Positions 4,975 through 24,407 of a stretch of DNA of 24,900 nt are shown piece after piece; positions within the stretch are counted from its first letter, which is position 1; each line of letters starts with the position of its first letter. The notes under the pieces were generated by a model that saw only the letters and a program-made list of their open reading frames with translations, was not told the DNA's origin and made no database searches. The DNA is taken from positions 1-24,900 of IMG/VR virus record IMGVR_UViG_3300049727_000022; one strand, written 5' to 3'. The DNA is from a virus. The position numbers and the translations under genes were made by a program.

Positions 4975-5366
4975 ACTGGTATCGGCCCTGTCAGCGCGTA
5001 TCCGCTCTGTGTCGTGACGTTGATAGCATACGTCGGGGCAGGCTGGTTTGCAATCTGCGCTTGTTTGGCAACCAGCAGCGCGGCGAAGAAGGGCGCGAAC
5101 TGCTGCTGGGTGCGGTTGATATAATAGTCCGGCTGAATTTGCTGGATGACCGACTGCTCGGCGGGGATGCCGTAGTTAGCAAAGAACGGCGACTCGCCCA
5201 GGTTGAGCTTGAGCACCTGAATAAGCGTCGTCAAGTAGACACCATCTGAAAAACCATTCGCATCGGTCGAGACCTCGACCCAGGTCCCGCCCTTGCCGTT
5301 CGAGTCTTGGTTAATTCTTCCCCACGTGCGAATGGTCTGTCTCCCTAGCAAACTCACCATATACAT
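4971..5366 (-). CDS. gp25-like baseplate wedge protein
   Basis: A 131-residue protein. The blocks VYLTTLIQVLKLNLGESPFFANYGIPAEQSV and PDYYINRTQQQFAPFFAAL match the small wedge protein that precedes J in myovirus baseplates (the T4 gp25 / P2 W slot). The LGESPFFANYGIP motif is the clearest signature. ATG 5366 is the longest start and ATG 5360 is equally possible; neither has a clear Shine-Dalgarno sequence. Both lie inside the 3' end of the HNH-AP2 gene, in another frame, so the two reading frames overlap by about 50 bp. J follows with a 4-base overlap. Confidence 0.8.
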   Translation of the reverse strand: MYMVSLLGRQTIRTWGRINQDSNGKGGTWVEVSTDANGFSDGVYLTTLIQVLKLNLGESPFFANYGIPAEQSVIQQIQPDYYINRTQQQFAPFFAALLVAKQAQIANQPAPTYAINVTTQSGYALTGPIPV

Positions 5367-5826
5367 GGGAGTGCGCCAATCTTACCGAATGCGCTTCTTC
5401 TTTAGTTGTGAAGAACCCAAGCCAGATGCGCTTTCCACCTACGTGGACATACGCCCGCCATCTGCCAGTTCTCTTATCCTGCGTAATCCCCTTTAGCCCG
5501 CTTTCGCTACCACGACGAACATCCCGGTTACAGGTATTTTGTGAATTCGACGCCTCGCGAAGATTAATCAAGCGGTTATCATCTTTTATACCGTTGATAT
5601 GATCAAGTTGTTCTCTGGGCCATACACCGTAGACATACAACCAAATAAGTCGATGGACAGCAGGCTATTTCCCAGCAATACCAGTCCTCAAGTAACCCTT
5701 GGCATCAAACCACCCAACGCGCTCGCCAGCAAAAAACCGACCGTGCGGCGCTATTCGTCGCGTAAGAACTCCAGTTTCGGAGTTATACGAAAACCGCTCG
5801 CGCAGAAGAATTTGTGTAATTTCCAT
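5311..5826 (-). pseudogene. HNH-AP2 homing endonuclease interrupted by one in-frame amber codon
   Basis: Translating leftward from ATG 5826 gives 53 codons (MEITQILLRERFSYNSETGV, then GWFDAKGYLRTGIAGK) and a TAG at 5667-5665. In the same frame it continues PAVHRLIWLYVYGVWP, then DHINGIKDDNRLINLREA (H-N-N core: H76, N84, then NLR) and a C-terminal AP2-like DNA-binding domain (GLKGITQDKRTGRWRAYVHV, GGKRIWLGFF, EEAHSVRLAHSHVYGEFAR). The stop is at 5313-5311. Read through the TAG it is 171 residues, a normal length and domain order for phage HNH-AP2 endonucleases, with nothing else missing. It could be a recent nonsense allele, or a gene read by amber suppression. Restart at TTG 5640 would keep the HNH and AP2 parts but lose the N-terminal domain. 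It sits between spike and gp25 genes, and its end overlaps the gp25-like start. Confidence 0.8.
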
Positions 5827-7517: not shown

Positions 7518-7801
7518 GGCGTCACCACGAACGTCTGCGTGCCCTCGGTGAATATCAGCGTCGATCCCGAGAAGTATCCGGCCACAAGCGAGATCGGGTA
7601 GCCAGCCGGAGAGGCAACCATCGGCGTATTGACGATGAGGTTTCCGCTCTGATCCGCAACTTGCAGATACCAACGCTGGCCGAACGTGTTCCACAGCACG
7701 GTGCAATTATAGGTCGCCGTGCCCAGCGCGCTATCGGTCAGCGTAGCCTGAAACTGGAAAGGTTCTGTCGCTGTCGGGGAAAAAGGCGTAACCGTGCTCA
7801 T
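7514..7801 (-). CDS. Small baseplate plug-like protein (DUF6983-like)
   Basis: A 95-residue protein from ATG 7801, chosen because it overlaps the upstream stop as ATGA. The sequence FQFQATLTDSALGTATYNC, VLWNTFGQRWYLQVADQSGN and SLVAGYFSGSTLIF matches a family of about 100-residue phage proteins placed just ahead of the hub. In that family a compact beta barrel carries a WN...GRWYLxIxDxxG signature. I associate it with DUF6983, a baseplate plug type, from memory only. The product probably closes the tube end above the hub. It is translationally coupled to both neighbours by 4-base overlaps. Confidence 0.65.
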   Translation of the reverse strand: MSTVTPFSPTATEPFQFQATLTDSALGTATYNCTVLWNTFGQRWYLQVADQSGNLIVNTPMVASPAGYPISLVAGYFSGSTLIFTEGTQTFVVTP

Positions 7802-8562
7802 GCCGAAGCAACCGTGTTGGCTGGCGACCCAGGCGCAAGGTATGGCAACGAAGAGGGGGCTGTGTTGGTGCCCGCCGTCGAGCCGCCGGATGGAATCGAG
7901 CTGCCGGTCAAGCTCGGAGGTTGGCCGACAGAGGCGGACGCGCCCGAGTAACTCGGCTGCCCGGTGATCTGCGTCCCATTGCTCAATTTCGACATCAGCG
8001 TATTCTGCGCGGCCTGCGCGGCTTGCAGCGTAAGCAATGGCTTGCGGAAGTCGATCTGGTAGGCATTCTGCGCCTGCTTGCTCTCTGACGACGACACATC
8101 GACCATCCGAATGCGCACCAAGTCTGTGTAGAAAAACTTGGGCGTAACGTAGGTGTAGGTGCCGCCGAGCGAGTCGTGCTGATTCATCGCAGAGGCGAGC
8201 GCGGTCATGATCGCAGTCGATGTGGCATACCCACCCGCATCGCGCACCGGGCACATCATCAGACAGGAGACAACCAGCGGATTGGCGATGATCGCATTGC
8301 CTGCCACGGCCTGATTGGCGAAGGGGTATTCGCCGATCACATTCTCGCCGAGCGTGGCGCCGGGAAGCGGGATGAAGTTGGCGAAGTAGTCATCCAGGCT
8401 GGCCGGACCCCCACTCGACAGCAACCCAGACGGGAAACTGCTCGACTCGGTGATCTGCGTGATCGGCATCACGCCGCCGGGGATATTCTGGGCAATACCG
8501 CCACAGAATACGATTGGCGCCAGTTGGTAGCTGAGAATCCACTGAGCGGTTCCGGGGCTCAT
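7798..8562 (-). CDS. Tail or baseplate protein following the tape measure, function uncertain
   Basis: A 254-residue protein, ATG one base after the tape-measure stop. Residues about 10-35 (LSYQLAPIVFCGGIAQNIPG, GVMPITQITE) and 125-185 (HDSLGGTYTYVTPKFFYTDL, RIRMVDVSS, QNAYQIDFRKPLLT) are conserved-looking blocks of a phage family that I recognise by position but whose structure I cannot name. The last 55 residues are Ser/Gly/Pro/Thr rich (SSIPSGGSTAGTNTAPSS) and probably disordered. Its place between tape measure and plug/hub suggests a distal tail or baseplate-initiation role, like DNA-circulation or Dit-type proteins. That assignment is inference. Confidence 0.65.
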   Translation of the reverse strand: MSPGTAQWILSYQLAPIVFCGGIAQNIPGGVMPITQITESSSFPSGLLSSGGPASLDDYFANFIPLPGATLGENVIGEYPFANQAVAGNAIIANPLVVSCLMMCPVRDAGGYATSTAIMTALASAMNQHDSLGGTYTYVTPKFFYTDLVRIRMVDVSSSESKQAQNAYQIDFRKPLLTLQAAQAAQNTLMSKLSNGTQITGQPSYSGASASVGQPPSLTGSSIPSGGSTAGTNTAPSSLPYLAPGSPANTVASA

Positions 8563-8563
8563 G

Positions 8564-10261
8564 TTACGTCGCCAACTGAGCGGCGGTCACGGTCGCGTTG
8601 CCGCCGGTATTGTTGCGAATGTCAACCTGGGTGCGGCTATTGCGGAACTTCTGCTGATAGGCGCCCGTATCGCCGCCCGCGCCTAAGATCTTCTTTAGAT
8701 AGCCGTGCGTTTCGCTTGGCATGCGTGGGTCATCAAGCCAGCTACGTCCGTATTTACGCGCATATGCCATTGCCTCATTGACGTGACGAGGCCCCCAATT
8801 GTATGCGGCAAGCACCTTTTGTAAATCAGACCCATATACCTTCATGTAATGGCTGAGTTCGTTTTGCGCGACTTCCCAAGACTGCTTGCGGTCCATCGGG
8901 TTGGTCTGTCCACCTGTCGCGAAATCATGCCAGGCATCCGGCGTGATCTGCATCCACCCTGCCGCGCCAGCCCGAGACGTCGAGAGGTCGTGCCCGTGCG
9001 ACGATTCTGCGCCCTCGACGGCATACAGCAGGTCGCCCCAGGAGCGGAATGTGCCGCTCTCCCCTGGACGAAAGCTCATCGGGGTAAATCCCTGCGACAA
9101 ACCAGGCACTATCGGGTAGGCGTGAAATGGCTTGGGAATCATCCACGACCAATCATCGTTGGCGTGCGAGCCTGTATAGTTCCCATAATATGGAAACGCC
9201 TTAGTGCCTCCCGTGGAACTATTCGGAAGTACAGGCTCTCCGTGACCAGGCAACACAGACCATACCCACTTAGCAAATTCACCAATCGCCCGAGCGGCTT
9301 CGCCAACGTGGGTCACAAATTCGCTGATGTCCTGCTTAAATTGTGGCGTTCCAACATAGCTCGCGAAGTGTCCCAGCGCGTCCGAGAGCGAGTCTATCCA
9401 GTGAGCGACTTCCGGGTTCTTGGCAAAGGCGTCGAACACGCCAACAAACGCCTCAGACAACTTCTTGATCTGGGGCGCGAGCGGCGTCAAGGCGCGAATC
9501 AAGCTGGTCTCAATCGCCATCCCGGCAAAGTGAAGCTGGACTTGTAGGCCCTGCCACGCCTTCTGCTGCTCCTTCGTCAGTTCCAGCTCGCGGCGCCGCG
9601 CCTGATATTCCCGCTGATACCCGGCAATCTCGGCGGCCGGGGTGTGCTTGTAGCGCTCGAAGTCTTCGAGCGTGATGAACTGATCGAGATGACGCGCCTT
9701 CAAAACCTGCGCCATCATGCTTTCCGGCGTCTGGTCGGCAATCTTCTTGAGCGCGTTTACCAACGAATCAGCGACCTGGCCGGTGTCCTTGCCGCGTATG
9801 TCGCTCTCGCTCAGCCCAGCGCCGTACAGGCCGGGGCGCAGCGTAACGTCGTGCATGGCAGCATTGACCGCGCCCAGGAACTGACCAGGATCGGACAATC
9901 TGCCGAAGGTGGCTGCGAATCCGCGTTGCTCCCCTGGTGTGATGTTCTGGCCGAGCGCATTGCGCCGCTGGTTGCCGGCGGCAATCGCGAGCCGGTCGAT
10001 GCCCCACAAGCTGCCGACCCCAAGCAGTCCCGAGATGATGCCACCAATCTCAGCCCAGCGCAGCAGCGAGCGTGTGGCGCTGGCGATGTTTCCCGCCATC
10101 GTCTTGGTGTGATGGGAAACACTGGCCCACATCCGGACCGCATTAGCCGACACGCCCACAAAGCTGGTGCTGACCTCTTTCGTGCCTGCGCGGACGGCCT
10201 TGACCTGCTCCTCGAATGCCGTGAAGGATTCGCGGAACTTGTCGAACGCCGCCGTGTCCAT
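8564..10261 (-). CDS. Tail tape measure protein with C-terminal lytic transglycosylase domain
   Basis: A 565-residue protein. Residues 1-70 form an amphipathic helix region, 71-97 a hydrophobic segment (EIGGIISGLLGVGSLWGIDR), 200-340 long helices with a charged stretch (YQREYQARRRELELTKEQQK). Residues about 405-500 form a soluble lytic transglycosylase-like domain: AVEGAESSHG with probable catalytic E419, then AAGWMQITPDAW and VLAAYNWGPRHV. The domain would cut peptidoglycan during DNA entry, while the helical part sets tail length; 565 residues implies a short tail. Position right after the tail chaperone pair and before the baseplate genes supports the call. No Shine-Dalgarno sequence is evident before ATG 10261. 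The ATG is in the same frame as the T extension and lies 12 codons after its stop, so translation may depend on coupling. Confidence 0.88.
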   Translation of the reverse strand: MDTAAFDKFRESFTAFEEQVKAVRAGTKEVSTSFVGVSANAVRMWASVSHHTKTMAGNIASATRSLLRWAEIGGIISGLLGVGSLWGIDRLAIAAGNQRRNALGQNITPGEQRGFAATFGRLSDPGQFLGAVNAAMHDVTLRPGLYGAGLSESDIRGKDTGQVADSLVNALKKIADQTPESMMAQVLKARHLDQFITLEDFERYKHTPAAEIAGYQREYQARRRELELTKEQQKAWQGLQVQLHFAGMAIETSLIRALTPLAPQIKKLSEAFVGVFDAFAKNPEVAHWIDSLSDALGHFASYVGTPQFKQDISEFVTHVGEAARAIGEFAKWVWSVLPGHGEPVLPNSSTGGTKAFPYYGNYTGSHANDDWSWMIPKPFHAYPIVPGLSQGFTPMSFRPGESGTFRSWGDLLYAVEGAESSHGHDLSTSRAGAAGWMQITPDAWHDFATGGQTNPMDRKQSWEVAQNELSHYMKVYGSDLQKVLAAYNWGPRHVNEAMAYARKYGRSWLDDPRMPSETHGYLKKILGAGGDTGAYQQKFRNSRTQVDIRNNTGGNATVTAAQLAT

Positions 10262-11609: not shown

Positions 11610-12383
11610 CTAGAGTTGCATCACTTCTGCCAAAAAGGCAGCGGGGTGTTTATTCCGTTTTCGGGAATTGCATGACCGGCAAGTGATCTGGATATTCCCA
11701 TCTTCATGCGCGCCATCTAAGGATAATGGAATATAATGGTCCAACGAAAAACCACCATTCATTAAATCACAAAGGCAATAAGGGCACTTAGCTCCTTGCT
11801 CCGCCATCAAAAGAGGGATCAATCCCTTAGACAGTCTTCCGAGTTTCGTGTGCGCTCGCCTCTTGGCGCAGTATCCCAATAAGGTTTCTTTGTTGTCGGC
11901 TTCCCACGCCTTGCGCGACGATCGGTGGCGGCATCGGTTTATCGCCGTCCATTCTCTCATATACGCAGCGGCCTTAGATTTTGTTGCCTCCGGGTTCTTC
12001 CGCCGAGATCGTTTCAAACGCTCGTATGGTGGGTCTTTAGCATCAGATCTAGCTCGCGCCGCTTTTACCTTGTCTGGGTTGGCCGCGCGCCATCGATCTT
12101 GATATACCTTGGTTTCTGGCTTGGCGTTAAATCGCGCGCGTCGCTCTCGAATGATATCAGGGTGCGCCCTTGCCCACAACGTGCTGTAGCCGCCCCGCGA
12201 TGCCTGCCAAGCCGCGCTCCGCAATCGGCTGCATTCTCGACACGATCCAGACTTTGTTGCCCTAGCTTCGATATGTCCGTTCTTGCATCTCTTCGCCGTA
12301 AAATAGTATCTCGATCCAGCGGCCTTTGCGGCTTTACGAGAGATTGGCAGGTCGGTAATATCGAGGGAAGCCATCTTGAGCAT
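11610..12383 (-). CDS. HNH homing endonuclease inserted between sheath and tube genes
   Basis: A 257-residue protein. The N-terminal zinc-finger-like part has C33-x2-GH37 and C48-x2-C51. Residues about 75-170 are strongly basic helices with a loosely repeated unit (RWRAANPDKVKAARAR, RSRRKNPEATKSKAAAYMRE) likely to contact DNA. The C-terminus is a classic HNH nuclease: C200-x2-C203, D215-H216 in FSLDHYIPLS, N230, then C235-x2-C238 and N239. Free-standing HNH genes between structural genes are usual selfish homing elements. The gene looks visibly richer in A+T than sheath or tube, in line with separate origin. The start is ATG 12383, or ATG 12374 three codons later; GCAGGA sits close upstream. 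Confidence 0.88.
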   Translation of the reverse strand: MLKMASLDITDLPISRKAAKAAGSRYYFTAKRCKNGHIEARATKSGSCRECSRLRSAAWQASRGGYSTLWARAHPDIIRERRARFNAKPETKVYQDRWRAANPDKVKAARARSDAKDPPYERLKRSRRKNPEATKSKAAAYMREWTAINRCRHRSSRKAWEADNKETLLGYCAKRRAHTKLGRLSKGLIPLLMAEQGAKCPYCLCDLMNGGFSLDHYIPLSLDGAHEDGNIQITCRSCNSRKRNKHPAAFLAEVMQL

Positions 12384-17313: not shown

Positions 17314-18342
17314 TCAGTACGGCATGCTGATGATCGAGAGCGCCTGCGGGCGGATGCACCAACCGCTGGTGATCCGGAGTTCCTGCAACTCGGTGATCGC
17401 GCCGTCCGGGGTGGGCGTCGGAATCTTCATCGGTGCCGCCATGTCGGCGTACATCAGGTTGGTCGCCTTGATGTTCGGCTGAACCCCAGCGAACTCGTTG
17501 GTGTTGATGCCGGGGATGTCGGGCTGCTCGATCTCGGGCATGGTGAGCAGCACGGCATCGTTGGCGAGGCCAGGAGCCTGCCCGATCAGCGTATCGTCGA
17601 AGTACCACTCGAAGGTGTCGCCGCCCGCCGCCGCAGTCGCCTTGATGACGTCGCCGGTAGTCGAGGTGCCGGCGCCGGGGCGCTGGTAGCTGGTGACCTG
17701 CACGATATTGGCGTAGGCGAACTGCAAGAAGATGCGCTGCGGCGAAATGACCACGATGTTGTTCTTGATGTTGCCCCCGCTCTGCCACATCCGCGCCTTG
17801 AGGGCGACGATCTGGTTGAGGAAGAACAACGCCATCTGGCCGTTGTCGTAGGTCGAGGCGGTGGTGTTGCCGAAGCTGTCGGGCGGCAGCGCCACCGGCG
17901 TCGCGCCGGAGGTATTGAGCAGCCCTTCACCGTTGGTCGGGTTGAAGCCATACAGCAGCGAACTGCGCATCTGCTGGAAGATGCCTTGGCGCATCGCCAA
18001 ATCCTGCGCAGCCGGGAGCGCCACGTTCCACTCGCTCGCGCGGGCGATATCGTGGTGATCCCAGATGGCGCGCACGCGGATCAAGTAGGTCGGCGTGCTG
18101 AAGTAGTTGGCTTCGAGGCTCGCCGAGGGCAGCAGGTTGGATGGCGACTGCCCGGCAGCAACTTCGGTGCGCAGGTCGAGGCGGTTGACGTACACCGCCA
18201 TATCCTCGCTCCCGATCTTAACGCGCGGCTTGCCGCCGGCCAACGCAGCAAAGGCGCCGGACGCCTGGGCGTAGGTGAGGATGAGTTCAGGCTCGGTGAA
18301 GCTCGGCGTCACCTTCGCCTGGGTCGGGAAGATATTTCCCAT
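17314..18342 (-). CDS. Major capsid protein (DUF2184-like)
   Basis: A 342-residue protein. Blocks fit the DUF2184 major capsid family: EDMAVYVNRLDLRTEVAAGQ, YLIRVRAIWDHHDIARASEW, LPAAQDLAMRQGIFQQMRSS, LLYGFNPTNGEGLLNTSGAT, IVVISPQRIFLQFAYANIVQ and a C-terminal block ELQELRITSGWCIRPQALSI. The HK97 fold is expected. No N-terminal delta domain is obvious, consistent with a separate scaffold, supplied here by the gene two places upstream. GAAGGG 8 bases ahead supports ATG 18342. A hairpin follows the gene. Confidence 0.88.
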   Translation of the reverse strand: MGNIFPTQAKVTPSFTEPELILTYAQASGAFAALAGGKPRVKIGSEDMAVYVNRLDLRTEVAAGQSPSNLLPSASLEANYFSTPTYLIRVRAIWDHHDIARASEWNVALPAAQDLAMRQGIFQQMRSSLLYGFNPTNGEGLLNTSGATPVALPPDSFGNTTASTYDNGQMALFFLNQIVALKARMWQSGGNIKNNIVVISPQRIFLQFAYANIVQVTSYQRPGAGTSTTGDVIKATAAAGGDTFEWYFDDTLIGQAPGLANDAVLLTMPEIEQPDIPGINTNEFAGVQPNIKATNLMYADMAAPMKIPTPTPDGAITELQELRITSGWCIRPQALSIISMPY

Positions 18343-18357: not shown

Positions 18358-18978
18358 TCAGATGAGGATGATCGCGGCGTCACCGGCTGCCCACGTGGCA
18401 TTCGGCGAGGACCAGGATACGATCTTGCTGTTGGTGTTGACCGACAGCAAGCGGACCGATGTCGGCAGCGCGAAGTTGCCGCCGGTGGTCACGAGCGTGA
18501 TCCGGTAGTTGGTCACGTCCCAGTAGAGCGCCTGGGAAGTGATCGAGCCATCGGAGCTGTTCAGCGCGGTGACAATCGCCGGGTCGCAAGCGACCGCCAA
18601 CCGGACGTTGGTGCCCAAGCGGAAGAAGGACACGTAGTTGCCCGATGCCGCCAGCGGCACGGTGTTGCCGGTGTTGATGACCATCGACGAGGCTTGGTTG
18701 AAGACGCTGAACCCGGTGATGGTGGCCTGCGTGGTCGAGCGATTGACCACCGGGCCGAGGCCGTCGGCCTGCGCGTTGGCGACGTTGATCATCTCGTTGA
18801 TGGGCACGCCGCCCCACATCGGGATCGAGTCGGCGGTGCCGAGGAGGCCGCCCATCAGCCACAGGCGCGATGCCGGGTCGTCGGAGACCAGGCCCTGCAT
18901 GAGCCCCTGGGTCTGGAGCAAGAAGGAGTCCTGCGGCTGGCTGGTGCCGTAGGGGTTGAAGGCGAGGGTGCTTGCCAT
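18358..18978 (-). CDS. Head structural protein, possible capsid decoration protein
   Basis: A 206-residue protein. The N-terminus (FNPYGTSQPQDSFLLQTQGL, MQGLVSDDPASRLWLMGGLL, PMWGGVPINEMINV) is an extended arm with a WGGxPIxE motif seen in phage head proteins encoded just ahead of DUF2184-type capsids. The rest is beta-rich (TITGFSVFNQASSMVINTGN, LYWDVTNYRITLVTTGGNFA). It lies between the scaffold/protease gene and the capsid gene, with one base between it and the upstream stop. A decoration or capsid-stabilising role is inferred from position and composition. Confidence 0.7.
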   Translation of the reverse strand: MASTLAFNPYGTSQPQDSFLLQTQGLMQGLVSDDPASRLWLMGGLLGTADSIPMWGGVPINEMINVANAQADGLGPVVNRSTTQATITGFSVFNQASSMVINTGNTVPLAASGNYVSFFRLGTNVRLAVACDPAIVTALNSSDGSITSQALYWDVTNYRITLVTTGGNFALPTSVRLLSVNTNSKIVSWSSPNATWAAGDAAIILI

Positions 18979-18979
18979 C

Positions 18980-19972
18980 TCAGTTGCTCCCGTTCGGGTT
19001 GCGGTTGATGCGCCCGACGGTCGCGCCGGTCATGAACGGCGCCATGAAGGCTCCGATGTCGCCGCCGAACCGCGTGATCTGACGGCCCGCCTGGTCGCGC
19101 GTAACGATAGGGATGAGCTGTCCAGGGCTGCCGACGGTCGGCGACTTAGCAGCCTGCACCGCGTCCGCGTAGACGATATCCTCGATGGGGCCGAGCATGG
19201 CCTCGTCGAGGCTGTCGAGGCGGCTGTCCTTGAAGCGCGCGGAGTGCTTCTGGAAGCGGCCGAGCTGGCGCTTGCGGTAGTCGATGGGCCGCTCGCCGGG
19301 GATCGGCGGAGAGGCGCGGTCGCCAAACATCGCGGCCACGCTGTCCGCACGGCTCTGCGCCAGCGCCAGGGCGTTGCGCTCGTCGACCGGCACCTCGGTC
19401 GTCAGGTGCTTGATCTTGGCTTCGAGGGCGATGATGCGATCGTTGGTGGCGCTGTCGTGTCGCGCTGCGTCCATGCGCTCTTTCTCCTTGAGTTCCTCCG
19501 CGTCCTTGCGGGCTTTGTCCTGAGCCTCGTGGTCAGGCTCCTCGGCCTCCTCCTTCGCCCACTTCTCGAAGGACTCGCCGCCGTCCTTGCGCTCGGTGTC
19601 CTCGGCATCGTGGCGAGCACGCTTCGCGTCTTCGCGAGCTTTCTCTTCCTCGGCGCCGTCCTTGCGCATGGCATCGGTCATCGCCATCTCGTCGGCGTCG
19701 TGACGAGCCTTCCAGGCATCGTGCTTCTCGCCGTCCTTGCGAGCGCCGAACCGATCCTTGCGAGCCGTGTCGAAACGCCGCTCGTTCTCCTTCTCCGCTT
19801 CCTCGCGCTCCTTCTTCGTGGCCTCATCCGCGTCCTTGCGGGCTTTGTCGGCGGCCTCGAAGCTGTCCAGCCGCGCATCCATGCGGCCGAGCGCGTCGGC
19901 GATCTTGTCGAGCTTGTCTGCGTTGTCTTTCCGGGCCTTATCGGCCGCGGCGATCCTTTCCTCTTCGGTCAT
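18980..19972 (-). CDS. Possible separate scaffold protein from an internal in-frame start
   Basis: Methionine 320 of the fusion protein (ATG 19972-19970) is preceded by AGGAAGGA ending 9 bases upstream, a strong ribosome binding site inside the coding sequence. It lies exactly at the junction of the protease-like domain and the coiled coil. Initiation here would give a free 330-residue scaffold, as lambda Nu3 is made within gene C. Seen directly: the site and its position. Inferred: its use. Confidence 0.55.
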   Translation of the reverse strand: MTEEERIAAADKARKDNADKLDKIADALGRMDARLDSFEAADKARKDADEATKKEREEAEKENERRFDTARKDRFGARKDGEKHDAWKARHDADEMAMTDAMRKDGAEEEKAREDAKRARHDAEDTERKDGGESFEKWAKEEAEEPDHEAQDKARKDAEELKEKERMDAARHDSATNDRIIALEAKIKHLTTEVPVDERNALALAQSRADSVAAMFGDRASPPIPGERPIDYRKRQLGRFQKHSARFKDSRLDSLDEAMLGPIEDIVYADAVQAAKSPTVGSPGQLIPIVTRDQAGRQITRFGGDIGAFMAPFMTGATVGRINRNPNGSN

Positions 19973-20929
19973 GCCGATAGGTCCTTCCTGAAGTGATTGA
20001 TTGACAACTCCGGACGGTTCCCCGCCCTTATCCCACACACCAGCACCACACAAGGCAATGTGGTCGAGGAGGGCTGGGTCGCCCTCGACCAGTAGAACTG
20101 TGCCATCACTTAACCTGACTTTCTCGTTATTGGAGGCACTGCTGAAGACGACCGCTGGCGATGTACTGGCCTGCTCGGAGTGCAGCCAATCGAGGCAAGA
20201 GTCATCCCAAATCTTGACGATCGCCCAAACCTCGTCGCCCTTGATGTAAGGCAGGAAGGTCGTGCCGACGATGCGATTGTGAAACTCTTCGCTGTCGAGC
20301 GCGGGCTTCTTCTCGGGGTGGTCGTAGATGACCGGCAGGCCGTTGGCGCGCGCCAGGAACTCCGGATCGAGATAGATGGATGGATCACGCCAGCAATACT
20401 CGGCCTCGCGCAGCACCTTGCCCTTGTCGTCCTTGACCGCGTTGCGGTAGGCAACACCGGTGCCGGTCAGCCGGATGTCGAAGAGCCAGAACTTGCCGTA
20501 ACGCTGCGGGCTGACCAGATCGCCCGCCGCCATCATCCGCGCGATGCCAAGCTCGTTGGCGGAAAGGCGTTTCAGGGCAACGCGCACGCCGGGGTGCATC
20601 GGTTCCGGGGGGTCGCTCGGCTTGGCCCAAACGAAGCCGCTGTGCTCGGCGTTCAGCTTCGGGTCGAAAGGCTTGGGCAACTTCTGGAGGAAGGTGGTGT
20701 AGTCGACGCCATCAGCAATGCGCCGCATCAAGACCGCGCGATCATCTTCTGGGCACTGGCCCAGCTCTTCGACGCATTCGCGCTGGGCGGCAGCCTCGGG
20801 GGTTTCGCCATCCTCGATCTTGCCGCCCGGCAACGCCCATTCGCCGGCGTGATCGCCCTCAGCCGAACGCTTGACGAACAGGGCTTCGCCGGCTTCGGTC
20901 AGGAACAAGATGCCGGCCGCGTGGATCAC
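18980..20929 (-). CDS. Nudix hydrolase - DUF2213-like prohead protease - scaffold fusion protein
   Basis: A 649-residue protein with three parts. Residues 1-125 are a Nudix hydrolase domain with a perfect Nudix box from G36 to G57 (GGKIEDGE, then REcvEELG). Residues about 137-315 look like the DUF2213 prohead-protease-type domain (LPVIYDHPEKKPALDSEEFH, FLPYIKGDEVWAIVKIWDD, DHIALCGAGVWDKGG), with H204 and a serine in the STSPAVVFSS stretch as possible catalytic residues. Residues about 320-515 are a highly charged coiled coil with many ARKD and RHDA units, and 520-649 a C-terminal segment; together they suit a scaffold. The start is GTG 20929, fixed by AGAAGGAG 8 bases upstream. Protease and scaffold in one gene before the capsid is a known arrangement; the fused Nudix domain is unusual. 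Confidence 0.8.
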   Translation of the reverse strand: MIHAAGILFLTEAGEALFVKRSAEGDHAGEWALPGGKIEDGETPEAAAQRECVEELGQCPEDDRAVLMRRIADGVDYTTFLQKLPKPFDPKLNAEHSGFVWAKPSDPPEPMHPGVRVALKRLSANELGIARMMAAGDLVSPQRYGKFWLFDIRLTGTGVAYRNAVKDDKGKVLREAEYCWRDPSIYLDPEFLARANGLPVIYDHPEKKPALDSEEFHNRIVGTTFLPYIKGDEVWAIVKIWDDSCLDWLHSEQASTSPAVVFSSASNNEKVRLSDGTVLLVEGDPALLDHIALCGAGVWDKGGEPSGVVNQSLQEGPIGMTEEERIAAADKARKDNADKLDKIADALGRMDARLDSFEAADKARKDADEATKKEREEAEKENERRFDTARKDRFGARKDGEKHDAWKARHDADEMAMTDAMRKDGAEEEKAREDAKRARHDAEDTERKDGGESFEKWAKEEAEEPDHEAQDKARKDAEELKEKERMDAARHDSATNDRIIALEAKIKHLTTEVPVDERNALALAQSRADSVAAMFGDRASPPIPGERPIDYRKRQLGRFQKHSARFKDSRLDSLDEAMLGPIEDIVYADAVQAAKSPTVGSPGQLIPIVTRDQAGRQITRFGGDIGAFMAPFMTGATVGRINRNPNGSN

Positions 20930-21052: not shown

Positions 21053-21107
21053 TGACGCCGCCTGCCCGTAGCGCGGCGTTGAGGAGTCTCCCGCCCGATC
21101 TCACCAT
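21036..21107 (-). CDS. Possible 23-residue leader ORF
   Basis: An ATG (21107) overlapping the end of the 121-residue gene in the phage's usual coupling style opens a 23-codon frame (MVRSGGRLLNAALRAGGVNA) ending at 21036, inside the 40-residue ORF start region. It may only carry ribosomes across the gap to the next start. Little supports it beyond position. Confidence 0.2.
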   Translation of the reverse strand: MVRSGGRLLNAALRAGGVNAHPR

Positions 21108-21466
21108 TTCTTCGCTTGTTCGAGAGCCTCTTCCCTAGTGGAAGCATAAACATTCGTCTTGACTCCTGGGGAGTACTCAATCTCCCACAGGGCTTCCTTG
21201 TAAGCTGTGGCCGCCATCACTTTATGCACTTTGACCTTAAACTCGTCCGAATCCTTCCTCGACGCGCACAAAGCGTCGACGCGCTTCTCCATCGAGTCGC
21301 ATTTCGCCAGGATGCCGTCGAGCCGGTCGGTCATGGTGCAATCCTTCTCACCCGCCTCGCTGTATGCGATGGCCTCAGCTTGCTTCGGCGGCTTGCCGGC
21401 TTTTTCTTCGGTAGCGATGTTACGACCAAAGGCGGCGCTGCCGACCGGACCCTTCTCAAGCGGCAT
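21101..21466 (-). CDS. Small composite head-region protein, function unknown
   Basis: A 121-residue protein from ATG 21466, preferred over 21508 because MPLEKGPVGSAAFGRNIATE, then GKPPKQAEAIAYSEAG, is a pattern shared by many small phage proteins beginning MPLxKG. Residues about 44-75 (MTDRLDGILAKCDSMEKRVD, ALCASRKDSDEF) are a short coiled coil resembling the start of the scaffold part of the Nudix fusion gene. Residues 76-121 form a small separate domain (ALWEIEYSPGVKTNVYASTR, EEALEQAKKW). It overlaps the previous gene by 11 bases. The role is unknown. Confidence 0.6.
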   Translation of the reverse strand: MPLEKGPVGSAAFGRNIATEEKAGKPPKQAEAIAYSEAGEKDCTMTDRLDGILAKCDSMEKRVDALCASRKDSDEFKVKVHKVMAATAYKEALWEIEYSPGVKTNVYASTREEALEQAKKW

Positions 21467-21731
21467 CGTCCAACTCCTCGGCCTGCGCCATGATCCGCTC
21501 TGCCTCATCGACCGCTACCTTCTCGCCACGCATCCGCCGGGAATTGAGCTGGCGCGCGGCGGCCATCCGATGGGTCATGCGGAGGAGCCCAGATAGGCCC
21601 TGCATCGCGTCTAGGGCCGTTTGTAGGGCGGTCTCGCGCGCGCAGCGGGCTTCCGTGGCCTGCGCGTCCTTGACCGCCTTACACGCCTCTGCGCGGCTTG
21701 CAATCTGGTGGGCGTAGTCGTCGAAGGTCAT
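21456..21731 (-). CDS. Small helical head-region protein, function unknown
   Basis: A 91-residue protein from ATG 21731, which overlaps the MuF-like gene stop as ATGA; an in-frame ATG at 21776 lies deep in that gene and is unlikely. It is almost all helix: FDDYAHQIASRAEACKAVKD, ALQTALDAMQGLSGLLRMTH, EKVAVDEAERIMAQAEEL. Its place between a head morphogenesis gene and the protease/scaffold gene suggests an assembly accessory protein. No motif is recognised. Confidence 0.6.
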   Translation of the reverse strand: MTFDDYAHQIASRAEACKAVKDAQATEARCARETALQTALDAMQGLSGLLRMTHRMAAARQLNSRRMRGEKVAVDEAERIMAQAEELDDAA

Positions 21732-22576
21732 GCCACGACCCTCAACTCTGCGACCTGCCTGCCACGCTCGACCCATTCCTTGCCGCGTATCGTCAGCAAT
21801 TCAGGGGGCAGTCGACGGGGCGAGGTGATCCAAACATAGTAGCACCGGCAATAGACTTCTTCGCCCGGCTTGGTGATTTCATCGGTGTAGGAGGCACTTC
21901 CCCGCTTCACCAATCCCTGTGTGATCGCCCAGGAGTCGCGCACCAGATAGAGCTTGCCCGAGCGCGCAAGATGACCTGGCCGCGCATCGTAGCTTTTGTC
22001 ATGCTCGCCGTGGTCGTGCCAGATGCCAGCGATGGCGCCGTTATCCATCGCGACGATCTCGGCGATGTTCGAAATCAACTTGGCGCTTTGATCGATGTTT
22101 ACGCGCCTCGCTTCGTACTTGACCTGGGCAACGCTCCTGCCGATCTCCGCCCGCACCGCCCGCTTGTCGATGACGCCGGAACCGCCAGGCGGGATCGAGG
22201 TTGACCAGCCAACAAGCCTGGCAAGCGTGGTCTCGACGGCCTTCTTGCGGTTCAGCTTGATCCGGTCGGCGGCGGCGAGGATACGGCGATCTAGTTCGGC
22301 GCGCAAACTAGGCTTGATCATGGCAATGGTGCCACGACCGATCCCAGGCACGTAGTCGGCAATCTTGCCGGCGTCGGTCAGGTTCTTGAAGATCGCTTCC
22401 AGGCGCAGCCTGACATCATCGTCGATCCGCTCGATCGGCCCGAGCTCGCGCTCGGCGGCGTTACGCAGCTTGACAACCCACTCGTTGACCCGCTCGGGGC
22501 TGACGTAGCCGGTGCTCGACAGCTCGGCAATGGCTTCGGCAAGCAGACGGCCGAAGGTGTAAGGCTGGGGGGGCAT
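21728..22576 (-). CDS. Phage head morphogenesis protein (Mu gpF / SPP1 gp7-like)
   Basis: A 282-residue protein. The N-terminal two thirds are helical (SPERVNEWVVKLRNAAEREL, KKAVETTLARLVGW). The C-terminal third carries the MuF signature: IAGIWHDHGEHDKSYDARPG (about 183-201), GKLYLVRDSWAITQGLV and KPGEEVYCRCYYVW (about 236-249), the last being the PGxxxxCRC block of the family. Such proteins attach to the portal and enter the capsid as minor head proteins. TAATG overlap with the 108-residue gene and position two genes after the portal agree. Confidence 0.82.
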   Translation of the reverse strand: MPPQPYTFGRLLAEAIAELSSTGYVSPERVNEWVVKLRNAAERELGPIERIDDDVRLRLEAIFKNLTDAGKIADYVPGIGRGTIAMIKPSLRAELDRRILAAADRIKLNRKKAVETTLARLVGWSTSIPPGGSGVIDKRAVRAEIGRSVAQVKYEARRVNIDQSAKLISNIAEIVAMDNGAIAGIWHDHGEHDKSYDARPGHLARSGKLYLVRDSWAITQGLVKRGSASYTDEITKPGEEVYCRCYYVWITSPRRLPPELLTIRGKEWVERGRQVAELRVVA

Positions 22577-22902
22577 TATTTACGAAACTTTTCCGCCCTG
22601 CCCGCATCTTTTCCGTTAACGAGGATGCGGTAAATACGATCCGAGCCATCTCCATCGATACTGAAGCGCGGAGGCCCATCCTTGTAATCGCTCGACTGCT
22701 CCTGATCAGCGGTCACCTCGAACGAGTGCCCACCAGCCGCGACATCCCTGATAATCTGGAAAAACCTAACCAAAGCTGGCAAGAAATCCGTATCACTGCA
22801 CTCAATTGTAACCGAAACGACCGCTGGACCTGCAACAGCGTCAAGCCGAGCCTCCGCTCTAGCCAGTCCTGCAAGGATAGCGTCTAGTTGCGCGCTATTC
22901 AT
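22576..22902 (-). CDS. Hypothetical protein between portal and MuF-like genes
   Basis: A 108-residue protein. It starts with an amphipathic helix (LDAILAGLARAEARLDAVAG) followed by a small alpha/beta domain (VVSVTIECSDTDFLPALVRF, QIIRDVAAGGHSFEVTADQE, RIYRILVNGKDAGRAEKF). Coupled by ATGA to the portal and by TAATG to the MuF-like gene, so made together with both. This stretch looks less G+C rich than its neighbours. No family is recognised. Confidence 0.6.
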   Translation of the reverse strand: MNSAQLDAILAGLARAEARLDAVAGPAVVSVTIECSDTDFLPALVRFFQIIRDVAAGGHSFEVTADQEQSSDYKDGPPRFSIDGDGSDRIYRILVNGKDAGRAEKFRK

Positions 22903-24407
22903 GTCGTGCTCCCAAAGGGCTTCGGCTCTTCCTCTTGCGCAGGCTTCTCAGCCATCGGCTGCGGCGGCACGTAGTTGGCCAGCGTGGCCTCGTCGATGAT
23001 CAGCGGCGCGGAGAACAGCTCGCGGCGGCTGTTGATCTCGTCGGCCGCCCAGCAAATGATTGAGGCTTTGTTAACTGGATCGACTCCCGCATTAACTAGG
23101 CTCTCAAGCAGGGCAACTACCGACTCAAAGCGTATTTTTTCACTTTGCATTTTAGCGGAATCGGGTTCGGCCAACAGGTTCGGCCACTTCGCGTCGAAAC
23201 TATTGACCCAGTTGTAGAACGCGGTCTCGTAGGGCACCTTGCGGTACTCCTCGAAATCGCGCTGGATGGTCTTGTAGAAGTCGGGCGACCATGCGCGGCG
23301 CTGCACGATCCGGTCGAAGAAGCTGTAAGCCGGCGCCATCTCGATCCGCACGCGGTCGATGTAGCGCGCGATCTGCTTGGCGTCCTCCGAACCCTCCGCC
23401 ATGCCGCCCACCATCTCCTCCTGGTTGAGCAGCTTGGCGGGCATCCCGGCGGCCATCGCCGTATTCAGCAGCGAGTTGTCGCGGGCGAACTTGGCCGGGC
23501 CTTCGAGGTTCTGAAAATTGAGGGAGAAGATGTCGTCATCGACGCCGATGGTCAGCACGTTGCCAGTCATGCCGGCCTTGAGCTGCTGACGCTTGAACCC
23601 AAAGAAATTGGCGATGCGGTTGTTGATGATCGAGCCGGGCGCCTTCTGCTTGGCGATCAGCAGTCCGACCTTCTGCGCCACATACTGGTCGGTGATCATC
23701 GTCTGGATGAAAGTCTTCATCGGGAACAACGCGCGCTGGTAAACGCTGCGGCCAACGAAGCCGAACGCTGAGTTAGTGAACTCGATGTAGATCGGCGCCT
23801 CGTTCATCACGACGATCGAGCGACTGGGATGATAGACTTGGTTCCCCACGCGCAGGGCCTGTGGCTTCTGGAAGTCGGGGGAATTGGGGTCCTGGTTGAG
23901 CACCAAACTGCCAGCCGTGTTCAGGGGATCGAGCACGTTGTAGTAGGGATCGGTCTCCCACACCTTCGCAAGGTCGAGCGGTGCTTCCGCTGCTTTCGGG
24001 TTCTTCCGGTCGCCGACGATCAGCGAGGCGATGCCGTAGGCGCGAGCCGTGCGGTAAAGGTTGAGAATGATTGCGTCGGCGCCAACCGGACCACCGGTCA
24101 CATTGGCGATGCCGCCGGTCTCCTTCCACTCCTTCTTGAACGCAGGCACGAGGCGGCTTTCGGGGCCGCTGGATACGGTGATCTCGCGCTCTTGGCTCTG
24201 CGCCAGGGCGACGGGGTTCTCCGCCATCTTGGCGCCGAGTGGATGGTATGCCAGGACGGTCTTGCATAACTGATACGAGGCGGGCGAGCCGGGGATGATC
24301 TGCTCGGCCGACAGCAAGTCGATGAGCTGACTACCAACCGACACGGTCAAGCCGGCCTGGGTAAAGCCGGCGCCCCCCTCCGTCGTATCTGCGCCAAAAC
24401 CGCTCAT
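22899..24407 (-). CDS. Portal protein (DUF1073-like)
   Basis: A 502-residue protein and the first gene of the leftward operon. Portal-like blocks are SAEQIIPGSPASYQLCKTVL, AYGIASLIVGDRKNP, DPNSPDFQKPQALRVGNQVY and HPSRSIVVMNEAPIYIE, then RSVYQRALFPMKTFIQTM, a helical stem (RIEMAPAYSFFDRIVQRRAW) and CWAADEINSRRELFSAPLII near the C-terminus. The last resembles the end of DUF1073 portals. The portal is the twelve-fold ring through which DNA is packaged. No terminase gene accompanies it here. AGGG lies about 9 bases before the ATG. Confidence 0.85.
   Translation of the reverse strand: MSGFGADTTEGGAGFTQAGLTVSVGSQLIDLLSAEQIIPGSPASYQLCKTVLAYHPLGAKMAENPVALAQSQEREITVSSGPESRLVPAFKKEWKETGGIANVTGGPVGADAIILNLYRTARAYGIASLIVGDRKNPKAAEAPLDLAKVWETDPYYNVLDPLNTAGSLVLNQDPNSPDFQKPQALRVGNQVYHPSRSIVVMNEAPIYIEFTNSAFGFVGRSVYQRALFPMKTFIQTMITDQYVAQKVGLLIAKQKAPGSIINNRIANFFGFKRQQLKAGMTGNVLTIGVDDDIFSLNFQNLEGPAKFARDNSLLNTAMAAGMPAKLLNQEEMVGGMAEGSEDAKQIARYIDRVRIEMAPAYSFFDRIVQRRAWSPDFYKTIQRDFEEYRKVPYETAFYNWVNSFDAKWPNLLAEPDSAKMQSEKIRFESVVALLESLVNAGVDPVNKASIICWAADEINSRRELFSAPLIIDEATLANYVPPQPMAEKPAQEEEPKPFGSTT

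Follow-up and report, generated by a model that had tools for sequence, protein, structure and literature searches.

A Nudix Domain Joined to a Predicted Head-Maturation Protease and Scaffold in a Tailed Phage, and a Putative Cleavage Code

In this study we analyzed a stretch of phage DNA (the window, a 24.9-kb IMG/VR record) and characterized in it a gene whose product is best read as a tailed-phage head-assembly protein with three domains: a Nudix domain, a protease and a scaffold, joined in one polypeptide. Fusion of a Nudix domain to a head protease is already known and common, and has been in print since 2022; what is added here is a candidate cleavage code, the predicted pieces after cutting, and N-terminal peptides as possible address labels.

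Results

The gene lies at 18980..20929 on the minus strand. An earlier note on this DNA had read the same three parts in it, rightly, and had placed it exactly, without giving the strand. It encodes 649 aa from a GTG at 20929, which is preceded by a strong ribosome site (AAGGAG) and abutted by an in-frame TGA stop, so that the N-terminus is fixed and nothing is missing there. The translated ORF matches phrog_6216 at 1.3e-146 over aa 3-436; this PHROGs v4 profile, listed with unknown function, spans the Nudix, protease and scaffold parts, and compared with it the coil of the window protein has diverged and is of greater length. The minus strand carries, in order, a portal protein (22899..24407; PF06381 2.8e-9, phrog_146 9.7e-38), a 108-aa ORF, a Mu gpF-like head morphogenesis protein (21728..22576; phrog_324 5.8e-19), two small ORFs and the Nudix-protease-scaffold gene, followed, on the capsid side of the scaffold, by a head-region protein of 206 aa (18358..18978; phrog_6268), then by the major capsid protein (17314..18342; a weak PF09950 match, and phrog_264, major head protein, at 9e-10) and more structural genes. 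Further along the same strand, two ORFs among tail genes (5311-5640 and 11610-12383) have, by eye only, the look of HNH-type endonucleases, and an ORF at 3-968 is rich in GGTLGVTGATTLS-like repeats and probably encodes a fibre protein truncated at the contig end.

The Nudix domain occupies aa 1-122 (20564..20929, minus), of which aa 4-119 match Pfam NUDIX (PF00293) at 2e-17, well over the cut-off. For its predicted structure (pLDDT 94), a fold comparison gave 622 PDB chains with E ≤ 0.001; the chains listed are Nudix enzymes, with those of the MutT, RppH and Ap4A types leading. The Nudix box (G36-G57; 20759..20824, minus) reads GKIEDGETPEAAAQRECVEELG and is complete at the catalytic positions (G36, E42, R50, E51, E54, E55, and G57), which are invariant in 52 relatives. 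Described in the earlier note as perfect, the box is so in its catalytic residues and not in its 'U' positions, where C52 and Q58 stand instead of I/L/V. The metal-binding glutamates, on which that note had made its reading depend, are intact in the window and nearly invariant among relatives. Across 102 distinct domains, about 90% carry the exact box and 98 keep the catalytic residues, clear loss being limited to L119 and L129 (degenerate), L124 (EE to EK), and L067 (RE to SE). Both degenerate copies belong to Saccharibacter prophages, which have kept the domain, and to judge from the box these copies are probably inactive. Between close pairs, dN/dS is higher in the Nudix domain (0.11-0.18) than in the protease (about 0.07), and the Nudix domain is clearly under purifying selection. 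From its retained residues, the window Nudix domain is predicted to be catalytically competent. Its sequence appears to resemble MutT, Ap4A, and RppH enzymes more closely than ADP-ribose pyrophosphatases; the best NCBIfam models are PRK08999 and MutT, with every NCBIfam Nudix model far under its cut-off (NudE, 25.5 bits vs. a cut-off of 169).

The head-maturation protease domain (aa 123-312; 19994..20563, minus) is marked by invariant columns and fold matches. The earlier note had proposed a protease of the DUF2213 type; the match to these head maturation proteases (PF09979; aa 176-295, E 0.0038) is weak and stays under the Pfam gathering cut-off (17.7 vs. 22 bits), whereas a head protease is upheld by the predicted fold and by the invariant residues. 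Three relatives (L207, L134, and L132) do clear the Pfam cut-off, and H204, S255, T256, S257, P258, E282, D289, and H290 are invariant across 61 aligned relatives. Since comparison of the protease profile with PDB sequences gave nothing convincing, a fold search was needed. With Foldseek against all PDB chains, the predicted structure (pLDDT 92.5) matched mainly herpesvirus maturation proteases (assemblins) and T4 gp21, at probabilities of up to 0.99, E-values of about 1e-3 to 1e-2, and low TM-scores (0.3-0.4). The protease fold that the earlier note expected in this region is thus present in the model. It is the predicted fold, together with the invariant residues, that leads us to read a head protease here despite the sub-threshold DUF2213 match, and the model supports a serine protease of the herpesvirus assemblin/T4 gp21 kind, with S255/S257 and H204 as candidate catalytic residues.

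The rest of the protein (aa 313-649; 18983..19993, minus) comprises a charged coil and a conserved C-terminal scaffold region, delimited by composition, alignment, and occurrence as a separate ORF. Residues 313-515 contain 23% K+R and 30% D+E, with G and P scarce, a composition as expected of a coiled scaffold and in line with the charged coiled part foreseen in the earlier note. Nine distinct relatives encode the scaffold in an ORF of its own behind a Nudix-protease ORF, which supports its reading as a functionally separate unit; taken alone, the L023 scaffold matches positions 322-537 of the phrog_6216 profile.

Relatives are numerous, with at least 595 and at least 591 confirmed in two scans of IMG/VR and the Nudix-protease-scaffold gene carried by 28 GTDB genomes. 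An artefact of a single contig is therefore rejected as the source of the fusion, which recurs in hundreds of relatives, complete phages and prophages among them. When the search was repeated with the protease only, to counter the sampling bias of a Nudix-containing query, the Nudix domain was fused in 63 of 70 distinct relatives, separate in two and absent from five; in at least one of these five (L145) a remnant of the Nudix C-terminus persists behind inserted ORFs. In L085 and L099 the Nudix is a separate adjoining ORF. Mapped onto a 110-row protease tree, absence of the Nudix domain takes about five changes, gain and loss being indistinguishable on the tree. Two complete phages, pPE4 and Rac-SA53, encode the protein without the Nudix domain and have no Nudix elsewhere in the genome, which indicates that the domain is accessory and makes it unlikely that assembly requires it. 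The Nudix-less relative L004 (KU052037.1), of which the head gene alone entered the analysis, belongs to a prophage whose annotation places enterotoxin genes close to those for the terminase, and in a Kluyvera prophage (L133, 3992-5606) the gene is broken over three frames and is apparently a decayed copy.

While reading the relatives, we noticed a recurrent tetrapeptide, [KR]xD[SA], which was then tested on these same sequences against an expectation from shuffles that ignore relatedness and repeat expansion. In 180 distinct proteins, 1422 such sites were counted in the C-terminal regions vs. 210 expected (6.8-fold), and 27 vs. 6.5 in N-terminal extensions; the Nudix domain (12 vs. 15) and the protease (34 vs. 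28) were at background. The Glu version, [KR]xE[SA], was depleted in the same proteins (101 vs. 186), and the C-terminal region is devoid of [KR]xD[SA] in 14 of them. The window gene has 12 sites vs. 1.5 expected, the first predicted one being RMDA at aa 349-352 (19874..19885, minus) and the other 11 starting at aa 353, 364, 402, 409, 432, 439, 474, 485, 490, 527, and 570. Similar excesses were found in the related proteins of Pantoea phage PdC23 (8 vs. 1.2; first putative site RSDS, at about aa 289), YenM (7 vs. 0.9), and Shewanella phage QDWS (8 vs. 0.98; putative sites RADA39 and RMDA362 among them), and the remaining ORFs of these genomes and of the window were near expectation, except for a small upstream gene of the window.

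Head proteases of T4, phiKZ, and SPN3US cut after P3-x-E, and that of SPN3US trims its own C-terminus (PMC5694885); [KR]-x-D|[SA] therefore has the expected format. From its distribution, the motif looks like a cleavage code of the Nudix-linked protease in the format of T4's [LI]xE. Likeness to T4 gp21 and herpesvirus assemblin (S21) would then extend from the predicted fold and the protease-scaffold linkage to a P3-x-acid cleavage format, but the window protease differs from them in its putative P1 Asp (Glu in T4), its basic P3, and its extra N-terminal Nudix domain. Two classical DUF2213 members, L025 (5884-7806) and L005/Bcep1 (7676-9067), are enriched in their C-terminal parts for [ML]D[SA] (5 vs. 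0.6 and 3 vs. 0.2 expected, respectively) and not for [KR]xD[SA], and possibly have a different site preference. Between the Nudix domain and the protease, the motif is at background (3 of 162 junctions vs. 3.6 expected), from which we predict that the Nudix domain stays attached to the protease. Release by cutting at this junction was rejected as the default, and the earlier suggestion that protease cleavage frees the Nudix domain is left unsupported.

Forty relatives start with one of two short peptides, type A (MPxVSxxQHRxMEAAAHG...VGxEFVxAD) or type B (phrog_2423; MPLExGSS...AIAyxEAGKSKAD). In 23 of the 40, the first residue of the Nudix domain or protease has a [KR]xD[SA] site among the 30 residues that precede it or the 5 that follow (2.9 expected), and the Glu version is found at none of these 40 junctions (4.1 expected). 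The small upstream gene of the window (21104..21466, minus; phrog_2423 2.5e-11) encodes a separate protein that starts with a type-B peptide (MPLEKG...AIAYSEAGEKD) and holds three putative sites, KCDS, RVDA, and RKDS (0.16 expected). Type-B peptides open separate small proteins in 11 other loci as well, as a type-A peptide does in L058, and most of the small proteins that open with either peptide also carry [KR]xD[SA] sites.

These counts also bear on whether [KR]xD[SA] might be a repeat of the coiled scaffold with a role in structure or nucleic-acid binding, the specificity of the protease lying elsewhere. Many of the sites do sit in low-complexity coil, where repeats expand. Against this, Asp is strictly preferred over Glu, rare P2 residues are enriched too ([KR]MDS, 50 vs. 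1.4 expected), sites occur outside the coil at the peptide-domain junctions just described, and the excess is missing from a TolA-like coil encoded by YenM (2 vs. 0.96). We regard a scaffold repeat as doubtful.

Enzymes other than Nudix are joined to the protease-scaffold protein in some relatives. An arrangement of ADP-ribosyltransferase (ART), Nudix, protease and scaffold occurs in four lineages (L052/L219; L207/L213/L214; L215-L217; L218); two of these fusions were tested and matched PF03496 at 5e-19 and 3e-21. In L052 (3161-5719) and L207 (1906-3987), [KR]xD[SA] sites lie between the ART and Nudix domains. In L204 (2-1174, 1174-2754) a topoisomerase IB domain comes after the Nudix part and ahead of the protease. 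The Nudix domain itself precedes a classical DUF2213 protease in L025 and is carried on the portal in Bcep1.

Discussion

Contrary to the earlier note, which held an N-terminal Nudix domain delivered with the procapsid to be out of the ordinary, the fusion is seen in hundreds of phages, in PHROG 6216, and in two papers (PMC9503650; PMC8770471). According to Iyer et al. (2022; PMC9503650), Nudix domains of phages occur in fusion with MuF, portal, and capsid-processing serine peptidase proteins and are possibly packaged and injected; a Tn-seq paper of the same year lists DUF2213 with NUDIX (PMC8770471). In architecture and in the packaging proposal, the fusions of Iyer et al. are the same as the one in the window, but these authors place theirs in a T4 NudE-like clade that acts on ADP-ribose, whereas the nearest matches of the window domain are MutT/Ap4A/RppH-like. 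Neither a cleavage code nor the N-terminal peptides were found in those parts of the text of PMC9503650 that were covered. Likewise, the cleavage code, the link between peptides and sites, and ART-Nudix-protease fusions were not found in the searchable text of the literature.

To the computed domains, fold, catalytic residues, selection, and site pattern we would add a sequence of events in which cleavage, retention in the virion, and injection are what we infer. The C-terminal coiled scaffold would direct capsid assembly and thereby carry the whole protein inside the procapsid, where the middle serine protease would cut the scaffold to pieces, [KR]-x-D|[SA] being the most likely site. With no site between Nudix and protease, the Nudix domain would probably stay joined to the protease in a fragment of about 351 residues (about 39 kDa), an accessory cargo that fusion has carried into the head. 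Most likely it would serve to hydrolyze nucleoside-diphosphate-X compounds in the next host once ejected, or else in the cell that produces the phage. Taken as a whole, this account of a head-assembly fusion with a shredded scaffold and a head-borne Nudix cargo seems to us fairly probable, and packaging and injection of the Nudix domain are plausible. The recurrent association of Nudix domains with head proteins, on the portal in Bcep1 and behind ADP-ribosyltransferases in four lineages, supports the cargo explanation. Scaffold fragments usually exit the capsid, and the Nudix-protease piece might leave as well. A literature search for virion proteomics of any relative yielded nothing usable.

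The Nudix domain might instead work only in the producing cell, in late nucleotide housekeeping, with the fusion merely setting its expression and the enzyme neither packaged nor injected. That its nearest relatives in sequence and fold are housekeeping-type MutT/Ap4A/RppH enzymes fits this idea, as does the separate adjoining Nudix ORF of L085 and L099, which shows the fusion to be inessential. However, the fusion is kept in about 90% of relatives, and expression alone leaves the repeated association with portal and ADP-ribosyltransferases unexplained; we consider this role unlikely. Less likely again is a role in head assembly itself, with the Nudix domain as a structural part of the protease, or as its regulator through nucleotide sensing, and with chemistry secondary. 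Although the domain directly abuts the protease with neither a flexible linker nor a cleavage-like site and is retained in the Saccharibacter copies that have lost the box, its catalytic residues are nearly always kept and whole phages do without it.

The head-borne cargo reading can be taken a step further. It is possible, though rather less likely than not, that the N-terminus of the protease-scaffold protein is a cargo dock, at which type-A and type-B peptides would load Nudix, ADP-ribosyltransferase, and small proteins into the procapsid and would themselves be removed by the protease at [KR]xD|[SA], the enzymes so loaded acting in the next host. In this the peptides are proposed to act like the capsid-targeting sequences of T4. 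Such proteins would recall the polyvalent proteins (Iyer et al., 2017; PMC5512222), in which several enzymatic domains share one head-borne polypeptide, as in the ART-Nudix fusions of relatives; here, by contrast, the carrier is the protease-scaffold, and the window protein has one effector-like domain only. The cleavage code, the predicted pieces, and the putative address labels together form a checkable prediction for a family of proteases that hundreds of phages share. If it is true, the enzymes that many phages deliver with their heads could be inventoried on the basis of sequence only, and removal of a single gene could test cargo function.

Two further features were observed in the loci of relatives. 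The ART region of L207 also matches the C-terminal end of phrog_595, another head-protease family. In L204 and L145, the Nudix part is separated from the protease by long ORFs whose linkers resemble 'DHPRDxDGKF'.
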